64,000 bases of DNA, taken from the NCBI RefSeq assembly GCF_000760695.4, contig NZ_JHEG04000001.1, forward strand, positions 6,578,204 through 6,642,203, written 5' to 3'. A model generated the notes under the pieces. That model searched no databases and was not told the DNA's origin. It saw only the letters and a list, made by a program, of their open reading frames with translations. Position 1 is the first letter of the stretch, and each line of letters begins with the position of its first letter. This document shows, one piece after another, positions 32,663 through 39,182 of the stretch. This DNA is from Tolypothrix bouteillei VB521301. GTDB taxonomy: Bacteria > Cyanobacteriota > Cyanobacteriia > Cyanobacteriales > Nostocaceae. Position numbers and translations under genes: made by a program.

Positions 32663-32977
32663 ATGGCTCAGCTATCCCAGCCACGTCGAACACGGATACT
32701 GCCACAGACTATGGTAAAATCTGAAGAATTACATTACCGTACAACGCAACGTCGTGAACTTGGTACGCAGTGTCGTACTATTTTTGAACGCATTCGTCCC
32801 CAACTCATTGAAAAGCATTACAACTGGTTTATCGCCATTGATGCGGATAGTGAAAACTACCTTTTGGACTTGAAACTAGAAGGTTTGCTACAACAAGTTC
32901 GCGATCAATATCCTAATCCAGATGCCAAACTCACTATTTTTCGCCTGAATGAAACTGGAGCCTGTGGTAGGATATGA
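32663..32977 (+). CDS. Unknown partner of the retropepsin-like gene
   Basis: A 104-residue protein without recognised domain. The core IRPQLIEKHYNWFIAIDADSENYLLD followed by YPNPDAKLTIFRLNETG looks like a small alpha/beta fold. Its last 4 bases overlap the next start (ATGA), so it is translationally coupled to the aspartic protease-like gene. From memory, such pairs recur in filamentous cyanobacteria. A regulatory or substrate role for this partner is inference only. Confidence 0.75.
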   Translation: MAQLSQPRRTRILPQTMVKSEELHYRTTQRRELGTQCRTIFERIRPQLIEKHYNWFIAIDADSENYLLDLKLEGLLQQVRDQYPNPDAKLTIFRLNETGACGRI

Positions 32978-33357
32978 TTGCAGGCAGGTTTGGTGACAAC
33001 GGAGAATTATTCTTTGAAATACAACTGGTAGCAGCTAATAACGAACAGTTTGAAGTTGAAGCGCTGTTTGATACAGGATTTACAACAGGGTGGCTGGGGA
33101 TAAATTTTCAAGACCTAGAAGCTCTTGAGTGGTCAATAATTACACCAAAAATAGAAATGCAGACCGCGAGAGGGTCAGAATATTTTGATTTATACGAAGG
33201 AAAAGTCATTTTTGATAACAAAGAATTTATAATTCCCGTTCATGTAGGAGAGGAACTTTCTGATACTTTGATGGGTTTGCTCTGGTTAGATATCATGCAG
33301 CTAGTTGTGAATAAACCAAGAGGGATTTTGACACTAGAAGCAATGGAAATAGATTAA
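32974..33357 (+). CDS. Retropepsin-like (clan AA) aspartic protease
   Basis: A 127-residue single-lobe aspartic protease homologue. The catalytic motif is VEALFDTGFTTGW, with Asp-Thr-Gly at residues 33-35. The C-terminal GLLWLDIMQLVVNKPRGILTLE fits the conserved hydrophobic-Gly strand near the end of the fold. One DTG per chain means it must dimerise, as retroviral proteases do. There is no signal peptide, so it acts in the cytoplasm. It follows the 104-residue partner with a 4-bp overlap and lies 250 bp upstream of the MoxR gene. Confidence 0.85.
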   Translation: MIAGRFGDNGELFFEIQLVAANNEQFEVEALFDTGFTTGWLGINFQDLEALEWSIITPKIEMQTARGSEYFDLYEGKVIFDNKEFIIPVHVGEELSDTLMGLLWLDIMQLVVNKPRGILTLEAMEID

Positions 33358-33607: not shown

Positions 33608-34609
33608 ATGACCCCCAGTGAACTCAAAGCTTATTTAGGCAACCTAATCCGTAAAAACTTGCATATCAGCACAATGATCTGGGGAGCACCCGGTATTGGT
33701 AAATCAAGTATTGTAGGACAACTTGCCCAAGAACACGATATTGATTTTGTAGATGTGCGCCTCAGCCAACTTGCTCCTACAGATCTGCGTGGATTACCCG
33801 TGGCTGAAGATGGTATTTCTAAATGGTATCCGCCAGAATTTCTTCCCCGTAGCGGTAAGGGCATACTGTTTTTAGATGAACTGAATATGGCTCCTCCCGC
33901 AATGCAAGGAGTTGCCCAACAATTGATATTAGACCGTCGCGTCGGTTCTTACATAGTTCCCCATGGTTGGTTTGTGTGGGCTGCAGGTAACCGCAAAGAA
34001 GACCGTGCTGCCGTATTTGATATGCCTGCGCCTTTAGCCAACAGGTTTTTACATCTTGAAGTACAAGCAGATTTCGACAGTTTCAAAGCTTTCGCCTTAG
34101 AAACAGGAGTACACGAACAGATTATTGCCTTTCTCTCCTTTCGTTCAACCTTATTACACAAACTCGACCCGCAACAACCTGCTTGGCCCTCTCCCCGTTC
34201 TTGGGTAATGGCAAGCCAACTGCGTCATGCTGGCTTGGATATTTCTCCTGCTGTCGGTACGAGTGCGGCGGCTGAGTTTGTAGCATTTATCATTCTTTAC
34301 GAAACCCTACCAAACCTAACCCCCATTTTAGAAGGCAAAGGAAACAATATTCCCTTTCCCACAGAACCAAGTGCAAGATACGCAACTGCCATTGGCTTAA
34401 CAGTACGTGCGACTGATGCCAACCAAGCTTACAATGCCTTTACTTGGTTAAACAAAGTTGCAACAGCAGAGTGGGTGCAGTTATTTGCTGTGGATTTATT
34501 TCGAGTCATGCGGAGTAAAGGACAAATGGGAATGTTAGCAAACTTTGTTAAAAAAGATCCCGATTTGCAAAAGTTTTTACAAGATTTCCAGCAACTCGTA
34601 GCACTGTAA
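33608..34609 (+). CDS. MoxR-family AAA+ ATPase
   Basis: A 333-residue AAA+ ATPase of the MoxR class. Walker A is WGAPGIGKSSIVGQLA (from about residue 23), Walker B is ILFLDELNMAPPA (about 88) and sensor 1 is WAAGNRKEDRA. Pre-sensor helix insertions and the short C-terminal lid match the class. MoxR proteins remodel or activate partner proteins, almost always with a VWA-domain protein coded next door, as here. The VWA-like gene starts 110 bp downstream. It is the first gene of the proposed MoxR-VWA-LRV module. Confidence 0.93.
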   Translation: MTPSELKAYLGNLIRKNLHISTMIWGAPGIGKSSIVGQLAQEHDIDFVDVRLSQLAPTDLRGLPVAEDGISKWYPPEFLPRSGKGILFLDELNMAPPAMQGVAQQLILDRRVGSYIVPHGWFVWAAGNRKEDRAAVFDMPAPLANRFLHLEVQADFDSFKAFALETGVHEQIIAFLSFRSTLLHKLDPQQPAWPSPRSWVMASQLRHAGLDISPAVGTSAAAEFVAFIILYETLPNLTPILEGKGNNIPFPTEPSARYATAIGLTVRATDANQAYNAFTWLNKVATAEWVQLFAVDLFRVMRSKGQMGMLANFVKKDPDLQKFLQDFQQLVAL

Positions 34610-34654
34610 TGCAAAATTGAGAATTTTAGATTTTGGATTGGGAATTGGAGATAA

Positions 34655-34719
34655 GGTTTTCCCCCTCATCTCCCTCATCTCCCTCATCTCCCTTGTCCCC
34701 GTGTCCCCCTTGTCCCCTC
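34655..34719 (+). repeat. C/T-rich minisatellite ahead of the VWA gene
   Basis: CCCTCATCT units repeat three times, then CCCTTGTCCCCGTGTCCC and CCTTGTCCCC run right up to the ATG. The repeat fills the ribosome-binding position, and no Shine-Dalgarno is visible. It stays open in frame with the gene and would add 29 Pro/Ser-rich residues if an upstream ATG were used. Confidence 0.75.
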
Positions 34720-35874
34720 ATGACAGATACCCAAAAAATTATCAGCGCCTCCATACTCCGCGTGCGGATGAAGTCGCCCTTTTTTGCGACTTTAGCAATG
34801 TTCGCCCGGTTTGTTCCCACCCAACAACTATCAACAGCAGCAACGGATGGTAAAGACATTTTTTTTAATCCAGATTATTTACTCTCTTTACCTCCATCTC
34901 AACAGGATGGGCTCTTACTCCACGAGGTTTTACACGCCGCATTGCTTCACGTCCTGCGTCGGGGTGTGCGCGATGCTACCTTATGGAATATTGCTGCTGA
35001 TATTGTTGTCAATGGAATCATTTCTCAGCAAGATAAATTTGATCTTCCTTCAGGTGGTTTGCGAGATCCCGAGCTAGAAAATCTTAGCGTTGAAGAGGTT
35101 TACGAATTGTTACTCAAAGATGCTCATCTTTGTCTGCATTTACCGGAACTGGATTTACTCTCGCAAGCACCGGGGATGGGATCGGGTGACTCTGGAATAT
35201 TTTCGCCTGGGGATAGTCTTTCGGAAGCAAGAAAAGCTGCTATGGAAGCAAACTGGCGAAATGCTTTACAGCAAGCCTCTGTTATTGCTCGTACAACTCA
35301 ACATGGCAACTTACCCGGTGGTATGGAGCGGGAATTAGGAGCATTAACTTCTGCTCAGATTGATTGGCGTGCTTACCTTTGGCGCTATTTAGTACAGACA
35401 CCTACAGATTTTTCGGGTTTTGACCGCCGCTTTATTGGACGCAAGCTGTACCTAGAAACCTTACAAGGTGAATCGGTTTATGTTTATGTAGCTATTGATA
35501 CTAGCGGTTCTATTGACAACCAGCAACTGCAAATGTTTTTCAATGAAGTTCGAGGAATTTTAAATGCTTATCCCCATCTTCAGTGCGAGTTGTACTACGC
35601 AGATGCTGAGGCTTACGGACCCTATGAACTGAATTCCGATAGCACCATACCAAAACCTAAAGGTGGAGGTGGTACATCATTCGTGCCATTTTTTGAGAAA
35701 GTTGCCACAAGTTGGGATCGGCAAACTCAAGGTGTGTGTGTTTATTTAACAGATGGTTATGGTGATTTTCCGGAGGAAAAACCCGAATTACCCGTATTGT
35801 GGGTGGTAACGCCCGGAGGATTGGCTTTAGAGGAGTTTCCTTTTGGCGAAGCTGTACGGTTGCTATCTGTTTGA
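34720..35874 (+). CDS. VWA-like / DUF2201-type putative metallopeptidase
   Basis: A 384-residue protein. The N-terminal half (about 1-230) has the zinc-binding pattern LLLHEVLHAALLH (His68, Glu69, His72) of DUF2201 metallopeptidase-like domains. The C-terminal half (about 250-384) is a VWA-like domain with the metal-ion adhesion motif AIDTSGSID near residue 262 and GGGGTSFVPFF later. The start is taken at MTDTQKIISASIL; upstream in frame there is only Pro/Ser repeat coded by a C/T minisatellite (34660-34719). It is the usual partner of the preceding MoxR ATPase. Confidence 0.88.
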   Translation: MTDTQKIISASILRVRMKSPFFATLAMFARFVPTQQLSTAATDGKDIFFNPDYLLSLPPSQQDGLLLHEVLHAALLHVLRRGVRDATLWNIAADIVVNGIISQQDKFDLPSGGLRDPELENLSVEEVYELLLKDAHLCLHLPELDLLSQAPGMGSGDSGIFSPGDSLSEARKAAMEANWRNALQQASVIARTTQHGNLPGGMERELGALTSAQIDWRAYLWRYLVQTPTDFSGFDRRFIGRKLYLETLQGESVYVYVAIDTSGSIDNQQLQMFFNEVRGILNAYPHLQCELYYADAEAYGPYELNSDSTIPKPKGGGGTSFVPFFEKVATSWDRQTQGVCVYLTDGYGDFPEEKPELPVLWVVTPGGLALEEFPFGEAVRLLSV

Positions 35875-35987
35875 AAAGAGTTCAGTAAAAATATCAAAGT
35901 AATTTTGGCAATAGCTATGACAAATTAGTAACCAAGCACTCTTGGAGTGAAATTCAGTTTAAATAAAATCTTTTTCTATATATATAG

Positions 35988-38900
35988 ATGCTTGATAGTC
36001 CCCAATCTTCAAAATCTCTCTCACTTGAACAAGAAGCAGCTAGTGAAGAAACTTCACAACTCCGGTTGGAGGAATTGGCTAGAAGCAGTACTGAACTATG
36101 TAGGATTGTCGCTACAAATCCCAGTGCTGCTCCAGAATTATTACGGGAGTTAGGTTATAGTGCTGATGAAATAACACGTCGGTCTATCACTTCCAATCCC
36201 AATACTCCGGTAGAGGATTTATTGGAATTAGGGACAGAGTTTCCAGAAGAATTTTTAAATAATCCAATTTTACCGCTAGTCGTGTTAGAAAATCCTAATT
36301 TTCTGGCAGATATCTCACAAGAAAGTTTACTGATTTTGCTAAAACACGATGCAGTCCCAAGTTGGTTTCTTGAATGGGTAACAAATCTAGATTCTGAAGA
36401 ATATGAGGAAGTTTTTCTAGCACTGCTCGTAAAACCCGATGTTCCTCAAAACGCTTTGTCCAAACTAACTCGCAGTCAGAATTTGGTTATTGCTCAAGCA
36501 GCGAAACTTCATGTTAATTTGGCAGGAGAGATGGATGAAGGATGGGAGGAAGCAGCAAAGGCTGCCATACAAACGACTCTATTGTACCTTTCTGGAGAAG
36601 AGTCATTCTTACACAGTATCGGTATAGTTCCTGAGTTTTTAGTATCTGCTTTACCCGGTTTTAAAGACCGATATTTGTCCGTTGCGAAAAATCCCGATAC
36701 GTCTCCACAAATTCTACAAAGTTTAGTAGAAAACACAGAATTTAGAGATAGTGTAGCTGCCCATATTGCTGAAAATCCGAACGCTCCTGCTGCAGCATTA
36801 AAAATATTGTTAGGAGATGAAAACGATCGCATTCGTGATGCTGTTGCTTGCCATCCCAACACACCTCTGTCAGTTTTGCAAGAGTATCAACAGCAACTGG
36901 CTAATATCAAAAATCCCGTGACTTCAGCAGAAACGCTGAGTGAATTAGCAACAAGTCCTTGGGTAGAAATCCGCAAAGGAGTTGCTTTTCACCCCAACAC
37001 ACCACAAGTCATTTTAGAGCGACTGGCGCAAGATGAATCTTGGCGAGTCAAGACAGCTGTGGCTCTTAATATAAATACCCCCAGTTGGGTGTTAGAACAA
37101 CTGGCGCAAAATGAAACCGAGCCCGTTTGTGAAGCTGTCGCTTGTAACCCCCACACGCCAGGAATAGTTTTGGAAAAATTGTGTGAGGTTGGATATTGCA
37201 CTCATTGCAGTCTTATTGCCGAACACCCCAATACAAGTGCAAATATTTTAGAAAAACTAGCAACAAATTTTCAGGGAATACGTGAAGGAGTGGCAAGAAA
37301 CAGCAACACACCAGTCTCTCTTTTACTGAAACTTGCTCAAGATGCTTGTGAAGGTATTCGAGTGGCTGTAGTTGGAAATCCCAAGACTCCCCACGATGCG
37401 ATCGCATCTCTCAAAATAGATCCCGACTATGATGTGCGTTTTGCTGCAGTCAGACGCAGCCATCAAGACGCCGAGTATCGCATCAAACCACCTATTCCAA
37501 AATGGTTTTCTGAGTATCCCATAACACTAAGAACAAAAGCCAAGGATCTGGCACTTTATATTCGCGTACCCGTACTATTTACAGATAGTTGGATGAACGA
37601 TGATAGACCACTTTTGCCATTGAGTACGCATCAGTTGCAAAAAATTTCTCTAGAGCAGTTAGTGGAAGATGCAAAATCTCAAGATAATGAAGTTCGTATC
37701 CGCGTAGCTATTAACCCCAATACCCCCATCGATCTTTTGGAAAAATTGGCAAACGACGAAGATGATTATGTCCGTCGCGCTGCGGTCACTAACTCAAACG
37801 CGTCTGTGAATATCTTGGAAAAATTAGGTTTAGATACCAATTCTGATGTACGAGAAGTTGTAGCATATCATCCCCATACTCCTGTTACGACTCTCACGCA
37901 GCTAGCAGAGGATAGAGGTTGGCATATCCGTAAAGCAGTGGCATCACACCCAAACGCCCCTGCAAGCGTCTTGAATAAACTAGCAGAAGATCCAACAGAA
38001 GAAGTTAAACGCGCTGTCTTTGAGAACGTAATACGATTTTTTAACAATTTAGAGTTTGTCAGTATTTTTCAAAAATTGGCAGAAGATCAATCAATTTTTT
38101 CTCATTTTTCCAGTATAATTGCTTCTCACCCCAACACGCCAAAAAGCATTTTAGAAAGACTGGCAAAGGGGAAATGCGGTCAATTCATTGCTGCTAATTC
38201 CAATACTCCCATCAATGTTTTATTGCAACTTGCAAGAAATGTAGATGGCTCAATTCAAAGAGAAGCGATCGCTAATTTGTGGGTACATCTGACGACCAAT
38301 TCCGATATTTCTAGCACCGATTTAGAACAAATCACAGCAATCAACGATATAAAATTAAAAACAGCTATAGCCCGTTACCCAAAAACTTCTAACGAGATTT
38401 TAGAACAACTTGCTCGGGATTCATCTTGTAACATTCGTACAGTTGTTGCTCAAAATCCCAATCTTTCTCTTCATACTTTGAAACAACTGCTAAAAGATGA
38501 AGATAGTTATGTGAGCAAAGCTGCACTTGCTACCTATCTGCAAAATTTTTCGGAAAATCAAAATACCCCAAACAGTATTTTAGAACAGTGGCAAGTCGTG
38601 CAAAATCCAAAAGCACCACCAAAGGTTCTTGTAAAATTAGCAAAGAGTCCATGCTTAATCGTTCGCGAAAATGTTGCCTCTCACCCCCAAGCTTCTACAA
38701 AGCTTCTCCATCAACTTGCATTAGATAATTGCAGTCGAGTCCGCTTTCAGGTGGCACAAAATCCCAAGACTCCTGCCAATCTTTTACAGCAGCTCTCTCA
38801 AGATCGAACGGAGCGGGTCAGGATGGCTATCGCACAAAACCCCAACACACCTACTAACGTTCTCGAAGAACTAGCCTGCGACTATGAATGGCATAGCAAC

Positions 38901-39182
38901 ATCCACCAAGCAGCAGTGAAAAATTTGATACAACGTCGCTCTCTCAAGGTTGGCTCAATTTTGGAAAGTTACATTACCTCTGATGAGCCGCCTCTCACAC
39001 GCTTTTTGGTTTTCTTACACCCTCTTGCTCCAAGCTCTTTGTTAATGAGGAACTTTCGCTCATTGTTTTGGCATGAAAGGTATGCGATCGCGCAAAATCC
39101 CAATACCCCAACAACAATTCGCCAACAACTCGCTCAAGATAGTAACTGTTTGGTTCGTGCAGCCGCCAAAGCTAATTTGTAG
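35988..39182 (+). CDS. Giant leucine-rich-repeat-variant (LRV) protein
   Basis: A 1064-residue protein built almost entirely of about 25 LRV-type repeats of about 22-24 residues. The consensus is close to NPNTPxxxLExLAxDxxxxVRxAVA (for example FHPNTPQVILERLAQDESWRV). LRV repeats form alternating alpha and 3-10 helices in a right-handed superhelix, a peptide- or protein-binding scaffold. A non-repeat break lies at about residues 485-555. There is no signal peptide, membrane segment or enzymatic motif. It starts 113 bp after the VWA-like gene on the same strand, so it may be the target or adaptor of the MoxR-VWA pair. Its end overlaps the convergent kinase gene by 11 bp. Confidence 0.88.
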   Translation: MLDSPQSSKSLSLEQEAASEETSQLRLEELARSSTELCRIVATNPSAAPELLRELGYSADEITRRSITSNPNTPVEDLLELGTEFPEEFLNNPILPLVVLENPNFLADISQESLLILLKHDAVPSWFLEWVTNLDSEEYEEVFLALLVKPDVPQNALSKLTRSQNLVIAQAAKLHVNLAGEMDEGWEEAAKAAIQTTLLYLSGEESFLHSIGIVPEFLVSALPGFKDRYLSVAKNPDTSPQILQSLVENTEFRDSVAAHIAENPNAPAAALKILLGDENDRIRDAVACHPNTPLSVLQEYQQQLANIKNPVTSAETLSELATSPWVEIRKGVAFHPNTPQVILERLAQDESWRVKTAVALNINTPSWVLEQLAQNETEPVCEAVACNPHTPGIVLEKLCEVGYCTHCSLIAEHPNTSANILEKLATNFQGIREGVARNSNTPVSLLLKLAQDACEGIRVAVVGNPKTPHDAIASLKIDPDYDVRFAAVRRSHQDAEYRIKPPIPKWFSEYPITLRTKAKDLALYIRVPVLFTDSWMNDDRPLLPLSTHQLQKISLEQLVEDAKSQDNEVRIRVAINPNTPIDLLEKLANDEDDYVRRAAVTNSNASVNILEKLGLDTNSDVREVVAYHPHTPVTTLTQLAEDRGWHIRKAVASHPNAPASVLNKLAEDPTEEVKRAVFENVIRFFNNLEFVSIFQKLAEDQSIFSHFSSIIASHPNTPKSILERLAKGKCGQFIAANSNTPINVLLQLARNVDGSIQREAIANLWVHLTTNSDISSTDLEQITAINDIKLKTAIARYPKTSNEILEQLARDSSCNIRTVVAQNPNLSLHTLKQLLKDEDSYVSKAALATYLQNFSENQNTPNSILEQWQVVQNPKAPPKVLVKLAKSPCLIVRENVASHPQASTKLLHQLALDNCSRVRFQVAQNPKTPANLLQQLSQDRTERVRMAIAQNPNTPTNVLEELACDYEWHSNIHQAAVKNLIQRRSLKVGSILESYITSDEPPLTRFLVFLHPLAPSSLLMRNFRSLFWHERYAIAQNPNTPTTIRQQLAQDSNCLVRAAAKANL

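Follow-up and report, generated by a model that had tools for sequence, protein, structure and literature searches.

Two described kinds of MoxR-VWA assembly stand closest to the system discussed here. In NorQD a 'finger' of the VWA protein enters the pore of the MoxR ATPase, and an ATP-driven twisting of the NorD linker is proposed to remodel the target (PMC9976466, PMC13036017). Four MoxR-vWA ternary classes, namely VMAP, iSTAND, FtsH and beta-propeller, are delineated in the main text of Kaur et al. 2020 (PMC7159879). The present subject is a set of three adjacent genes in a 64,000-nucleotide stretch of the genome of the cyanobacterium Tolypothrix bouteillei VB521301 (contig NZ_JHEG04000001.1, positions 6,578,204 to 6,642,203; hereafter the window), which encode a MoxR-type ATPase, a VWA protein of the DUF2201 family and an array of LRV repeats (Table 1). 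That the LRV gene belongs with the MoxR-VWA pair, or engine, is well supported, and on balance we lean towards the view that their products make up a single three-part machine, driven by ATP, which remodels proteins and has the LRV protein as its recognition or scaffold subunit.

NorQ/NorD, in which a MoxR hexamer is joined by a VWA protein with an N-terminal domain, a linker and a metal-ion-dependent adhesion site (MIDAS), offers one likeness (PMC9976466, PMC13036017); it differs in that the N-terminal domain here is the metallopeptidase-like DUF2201 and the neighbour is an LRV solenoid rather than a known enzyme. With the conflict systems of Kaur et al., where repeat or scaffold domains are common according to the main text (PMC7159879), the set shares a MoxR-vWA core and a third protein encoded at the locus. 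Here, however, that third protein is an LRV array and the VWA protein carries DUF2201_N, and the terms 'DUF2201' and 'LRV' each occur zero times in that main text. None of the VMAP, iSTAND, FtsH or beta-propeller cores was found in the window LRV protein by Pfam at E 0.1, a Pfam-level test, and as far as Pfam shows the set would stand outside these published classes. Searches of the open-licence literature, a body that leaves most subscription papers and all preprints outside, returned nothing joining MoxR with LRV or with DUF2201, a name that four papers contain, nothing on the Synechocystis plasmid pSYSA together with MoxR, and only unrelated papers on LRV in cyanobacteria, which fits the view of the initial annotation, made from the DNA letters alone, that the pairing is uncharacterised.

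The closest solved structure to the LRV protein by sequence is 1lrv (a weak match, E 0.0016), which we take to be the Azotobacter vinelandii LRV protein with an Fe-S cluster. The two have the LRV repeat family in common, but the window protein has 25-26 repeats and a neighbouring engine, and a cysteine cluster of the Azotobacter type was not seen at its N-terminus, where the first 100 residues hold one Cys by eye, nor in the consensus of 38 relatives (A4).

The three genes of the window

The MoxR protein matches Pfam AAA_5 (E 5.4e-6) and bears intact Walker A (GAPGIGKS), Walker B (FLDELN) and sensor-1 (AAGN) motifs; its closest solved structure by sequence is midasin (7e-7). The VWA protein is a fusion of the DUF2201_N 'Putative metallopeptidase domain' (PF13203; 1e-34, 120.9 bits against a curated cut-off of 23.2) with a VWA-like domain (PF09967; 1.3e-17), displays HEVLHAALLH together with the MIDAS residues DTSGS...T...D, and is without a match by sequence among solved structures (best E 0.43). 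Although its reading frame opens at a TTG (34633), the start is placed at 34720 because the database copy (P0001) comprises 384 amino acids, in agreement with the gap of 34609-34720 given in the initial annotation. The LRV protein matches PF01816 (6.8e-75; 242.9 bits against a curated cut-off of 21.6) as well as LRV_2 (PF25591; 2.6e-40). Two home-made hidden Markov models count 25 and 26 repeats, respectively, spaced mostly by 26 amino acids, and a simple repeat pattern gives none that is clear at about residues 92-263 and one doubtful repeat at about 464-576.

The initial annotation had described three genes on the same strand, encoding MoxR, an HEVLH-VWA protein with DTSGS and, 113 bp further on, a 1064-residue array of about 25 LRV repeats, and each of these points was borne out. 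Its term 'pure LRV' needs slight qualifying as regards the LRV_2 match and the stretches lacking clear repeats. None of the three proteins passed a cut-off in NCBIfam. A terminator scan found four terminator-like sites, all intragenic, and none between the three genes, while a promoter scan (15 sites against a shuffle mean of 13.3) was uninformative.

Table 1. Positions of the module genes and intergenic regions in the window
Feature	Coordinates	Strand	Basis
MoxR-type AAA+ ATPase, 333 aa	33608..34609	+	Pfam, motifs
MoxR/VWA intergenic region, 110 bp, terminator-like site absent	34610..34719	+	
DUF2201 protein, 384 aa, metallopeptidase-like domain (HEVLHAALLH) and VWA domain with complete MIDAS	34720..35874	+	
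VWA/LRV intergenic region, 113 bp, terminator-like site absent	35875..35987	+	
LRV solenoid protein of 1064 aa with 25-26 repeats and LRV_2 segments; residues 1012-1064 form a C-terminal cap	35988..39182	+	

Recurrence of the LRV gene beside the MoxR-VWA pair

Among 386 evenly drawn cyanobacterial genomes, DUF2201_N matches occur in 18, ten of them strong (above 100 bits, a threshold of our own; the next value below is 70.9). LRV was found in 27 of the 386 genomes, namely in 8 of the 10 with a strong DUF2201 match compared to 19 of the 376 others (Fisher 8e-9), and adjoins the pair in seven of the ten. A draw of 201 Chloroflexota genomes yielded VWA profile matches in 26, of which 16, with 17 loci, exceed 300 bits (again our own threshold, which leaves out G432 at about 200 bits). 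LRV_2 is found in 13 of these 201 genomes, divided as 11/16 with a strong VWA match and 2/185 without (Fisher 8e-13); eleven of the 13 pass the family cut-off, giving a stricter count of 10/16 and 1/185. The LRV gene adjoins the pair in ten of the 16. In G550 LRV and VWA lie on different contigs, the VWA contig beginning 145 bases before MoxR, and in G472 and G595 LRV is present with VWA unmatched. In the cyanobacterial LRV, Ktedonosporobacter PF01816 and Chloroflexota LRV_2 searches only part of each genome's first-look candidates was scored, so that absences in them are soft.

A search of 60 near relatives, the source genome included, matched VWA in 11, of which G033 gave low-complexity matches only, leaving 10 real. 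In six of these (G000, G019, G022, G030, G039 and G050) LRV is found within 10 kb, and in the other four (G006, G020, G032 and G059) it is not. Dropped from this search were the seven low-complexity G033 matches, one match in G059:C323, a short second piece in G059:C163 and one 31% match in G022. Further afield, both PF01816 matches found in the 11.3-Mb Ktedonosporobacter genome (150 of 181 candidates scored) lie in the gene directly upstream of MoxR, and the genome of Deinobacterium chartae matches both the LRV and the DUF2201 families, whose adjacency was not seen there. A 57-base query against plasmids found no match.

At the level of loci, 48 mapped rows were reduced to 44 by the removal of two duplicates (L075 and L076, of L013 and L015) and two rows at about 200 bits (L128 and L129). 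Of the 44, 32 have an LRV gene no more than 10 kb from the pair, counting the decayed L019, and these 32 span Cyanobacteria, Chloroflexota and one Thermus plasmid. L019 aside, the LRV gene is on the same strand and separated by 850 bp or less from MoxR or VWA at 23 loci, and on the same strand at a distance of 2.3-2.4 kb at two. In L114, L119 and L120 the LRV gene shares 4 bp with that of MoxR, and in the Thermus oshimai plasmid pTHEOS01 the annotated LRV, MoxR, VWA, a 746-residue unknown and UvrD overlap in a row. The LRV search (E 0.001) found no match in a control set of 14 stretches, of which 13 come from genomes that have an LRV-bearing locus, nor in five stretches around distant DUF2201 matches. 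The link of the third gene to the pair, which had been drawn from adjacency in the window, is thus repeated well beyond it, and the rarity in related genomes that would have refuted it was not seen.

The LRV gene and the MoxR core are also absent together at some loci. All three motif patterns (Walker A, Walker B and sensor 1) are present in 38 of the 42 MoxR-like genes found at the 44 loci, and the Walker A of L012, read by eye as GSAGIGKS, brings the number of loci with an intact core to 39. MoxR is not found or is truncated in L014, L019, L082, L098 and L099; the genes of L019 and L099 match none of the three patterns and that of L098 matches sensor 1 only. Of the 39 intact-core loci 31 have an intact LRV gene near the pair, and of the 5 core-less loci none has (Fisher 0.0012, with related loci treated as independent). 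In L098 the LRV stretch present in the close cyanobacterial relative L097 is missing and a separate gap removes the first 84 residues of MoxR, including the P-loop, whereas the DNA from one gap to the other, and on to the end of the VWA gene, is retained with 91-95% identity. In L099, LRV and more of MoxR are missing through one larger gap. These gaps probably represent losses rather than insertions. In the genomes of L098 and L099 (G152 and G227) no LRV match was found elsewhere among the candidates scored, and the genome of L082 (G020) has one elsewhere. The decayed L019 (6339-9170; Chloroflexales bacterium ZM16-3) retains LRV-like sequence in two overlapping frames, a VWA gene with HAVLH, the catalytic Glu missing, and nothing of the MoxR ATPase core. 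The sequences themselves show the module and its spread, its intact motor and MIDAS motifs, and this joint absence at some loci.

Several observations weigh against so close a bond. The LRV gene is on the opposite strand at 6 of the 32 loci, and 12 of the 44 loci are without LRV within 10 kb, two of them (L118 and L125) with a contig end near. The gap between MoxR and VWA is mostly short, yet it reaches 3.5 kb in L083, with LRV genes between. On the VWA tree LRV adjacency needs nine changes, compared to a shuffle mean of 10.8 (59 of 500 shuffles as low), so that the adjacency is labile, often gained or lost. LRV occurs in the 19 of 376 cyanobacterial genomes cited above and in 5 of the 50 near relatives without a real VWA match, and the conserved LRV cap is found in LRV proteins of engine-less genomes as well (L090-L092). 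The comparison of 39 with 5 loci draws on relatives counted as independent, and the single gap in L099 takes parts of both genes. The dozen LRV-less loci, and the LRV genes of the source genome that stand away from any DUF2201 gene, would suit a view in which the three genes are simply co-moving neighbours and the LRV protein has an unrelated scaffold role. The association in two separate phylum draws, the gene overlaps and the loci that lack LRV together with the MoxR core speak against that view, which we regard as very improbable.

Metal site, adaptor and LRV arrays

In the favoured three-part machine, MoxR would serve as the ring motor and the DUF2201 protein as its VWA adaptor, combining a zincin-like domain that binds metal with a MIDAS face, and the long LRV superhelix would bring the engine to its target, as a subunit for recognition or scaffolding. 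We infer a physical complex, target recognition by LRV, and remodelling rather than cleavage as the common output.

The MIDAS columns are invariant in an alignment of 24 VWA relatives. Across the 44 loci DTSGS is present at 43, the exception being L020, whose gene occupies two open frames, the larger of which alone was examined; beyond L020 the MIDAS pattern misses the T-site at five more loci and the D-site at two more. The three histidines of HxxxHxxxxH are found at 44 of 44 loci. The glutamate of HExxH, by comparison, is found at 38, with Ala in L019 and Gln, giving HQVLH instead of HEVLH, in five Chloroflexota loci (L114, L115, L116, L119 and L120), at four of which LRV is directly adjacent. 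Because the catalytic Glu is replaced at some LRV-adjacent loci, proteolysis is unlikely to be the universal mechanism; a metal-binding, remodelling role fits all members better, to judge by these motifs. The invariant His residues and replaceable Glu also cast doubt on the 'metallopeptidase' label of DUF2201. On plasmids of Burkholderia and Cupriavidus (L109 and L111) there are distant genes of the DUF2201-VWA kind, at about 30% identity, with an ATP-binding protein encoded two genes 5' and, in L109, type IV secretion system genes 3'.

The engine is nearly constant, whereas the LRV protein varies in length, copy number and sequence. Mean column identity is 74% for MoxR (an alignment of 21), 57% for VWA and 29% for LRV, in alignments that differ in composition. 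The source genome has at least seven LRV places and one DUF2201 gene, its other LRV genes standing apart from any DUF2201 gene, and in L081 seven tandem LRV genes, two of them 99.6% identical, lie beside one pair. On these grounds a single engine may work with more than one LRV receptor, also with receptors whose genes lie in other parts of the genome. Diversifying selection on the variable LRV positions was considered and set aside: of six paralogue pairs, five have a ratio of nonsynonymous to synonymous substitution rates (dN/dS) of 0.40-0.75 and the sixth has 2.0, so that there is no consistent diversifying signal. A conserved C-terminal cap is common to cyanobacterial and Chloroflexota LRV proteins, but it was rejected as a mark of engine linkage, being present in engine-less genomes and missing from several linked LRV proteins; a pattern search for the same marks proved too strict.

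The LRV protein might instead be the client, with the MoxR-VWA pair a dedicated chaperone that folds, metal-loads or assembles the superhelix, much as NorQD matures nitric oxide reductase. The maturation of one specific enzyme by the NorQD pair, as described in PMC9976466 and PMC13036017, lends this some credibility, as does the near confinement of the Chloroflexota LRV places found to the pair (11 of 14 adjoin it). It is less easily squared with the LRV proteins of engine-less genomes, with an N-terminal LRV consensus (A4) in which no conserved Cys stands out, or with the repeat proteins of other folds, pentapeptide and/or WD40, near the pair in L010-L012, L017, L079 and L080, and we consider it unlikely.

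Some further arrangements of LRV genes were observed. On contig 2 of the source genome (L088, 6824-11329) an LRV gene adjoins that of a 760-residue pentapeptide-WD40 protein, without MoxR, and loci of Nostoc and Acaryochloris (L011, L012 and L017) have a like pairing close to MoxR-VWA. Precomputed annotations assign a WGR domain (PF05406) as well to the LRV proteins P0168, P0179, P0182, P0194, P0208 and P0232. Among VWA-less relatives, the LRV gene adjoins NuiA-like genes (L091) or a PD-(D/E)XK gene (L092).

Genomic surroundings and phage relatives

In Synechocystis PCC 6803 all three genes are carried by plasmid pSYSA: MoxR (SGL_RS00750) and VWA (SGL_RS00745) form the pair, and LRV (SGL_RS00715) lies on the other strand at a distance of 4.2 kb. 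Next to LRV is a GmrSD gene, with type I-D cas genes and several toxin-antitoxin pairs nearby, and pSYSA is 'the large defense plasmid' according to a title cited in PMC8272380. Elsewhere, L096 has two LRV genes, one of them separated from VWA by a DpnII-type restriction pair, the Thermus pTHEOS01 operon ends with a UvrD gene, an exonuclease-STAND gene adjoins L097 (L098 and L099 have homologous DNA), and L115 has a NACHT-FGE gene beside it. Such neighbours would suit a response to invaders, with LRV as the sensor of some phage or plasmid component and the engine activating or destroying a target, which would limit spread. Against it stand the surroundings in the window, where the neighbours look like housekeeping genes, and the lack of a consistent dN/dS above 1 at the variable LRV positions. 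In PADLOC 2023 (E 0.1), moreover, VWA and LRV are unmatched and MoxR matches IetA only, at E 0.017-0.062.

The flanks were also compared with PADLOC, using 123 proteins from 24 module loci (25 were chosen and L100 gave none; at most the six nearest per locus, of 100-900 amino acids) and, as control, 123 of the 143 proteins listed for 14 stretches. The tallies, 163 matched families against 27 in the control, count families and not proteins; because one protein may match many families they are unreadable as enrichment, and the control set likewise has strong matches, e.g. to AbiL and MzaA. A defence or stress role, which had been raised for the module at the outset, is possible on the circumstantial support of the neighbours seen elsewhere (pSYSA, L096, pTHEOS01, L097 and L115), and finds no such support in the housekeeping-like window; the invader response as worded above is, in our estimation, rather improbable. 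Upstream of MoxR, two small overlapping genes (32663-33357) were observed without a Pfam or PHROGs match, the second with a DTG motif that by eye suggests a retropepsin-like protease.

Distant relatives of the VWA protein are also found in phages, in 393 of 50,697 records, all below 60% identity. In the three phages that were aligned the VWA protein is 34-36% identical and retains HExxHxxxxH and the MIDAS residues. The identity of MoxR to its counterparts is 49% in cyanophage S-TIM5, where the MoxR-like ATPase directly precedes VWA, 38% in phiFa and 35% in phage G, where an AAA ATPase lies at about 1.0 kb and 4.4 kb, respectively. LRV found no match in the 50,697 phage records. When viral contigs were scanned with the MoxR alignment, 43 candidates came up and none was confirmed, even though distant phage copies exist. 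PHROGs names the phage DUF2201-VWA family (phrog_1314) 'HNH endonuclease', a name that several phage records bear and that the domains contradict.

A speculative extension, to which we give a low probability, is that lytic phages and bacteria share the MoxR-DUF2201 engine and that bacteria added exchangeable LRV arrays, making a ternary recognition machine outside the described classes, whose targets might be phage proteins or the engine of the phage itself. A natural comparison is offered by the distant, LRV-less copy of the engine in phages.

Although MoxR-VWA motors are widespread, targets are known for few of them. In the present case a specific, long recognition-type partner recurs beside one branch of these motors in three phyla (the third through one plasmid), and some relatives appear to have lost partner and motor core together. 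Since the model cyanobacterium Synechocystis PCC 6803 carries the three genes on pSYSA, the hunt for a target is directly possible.

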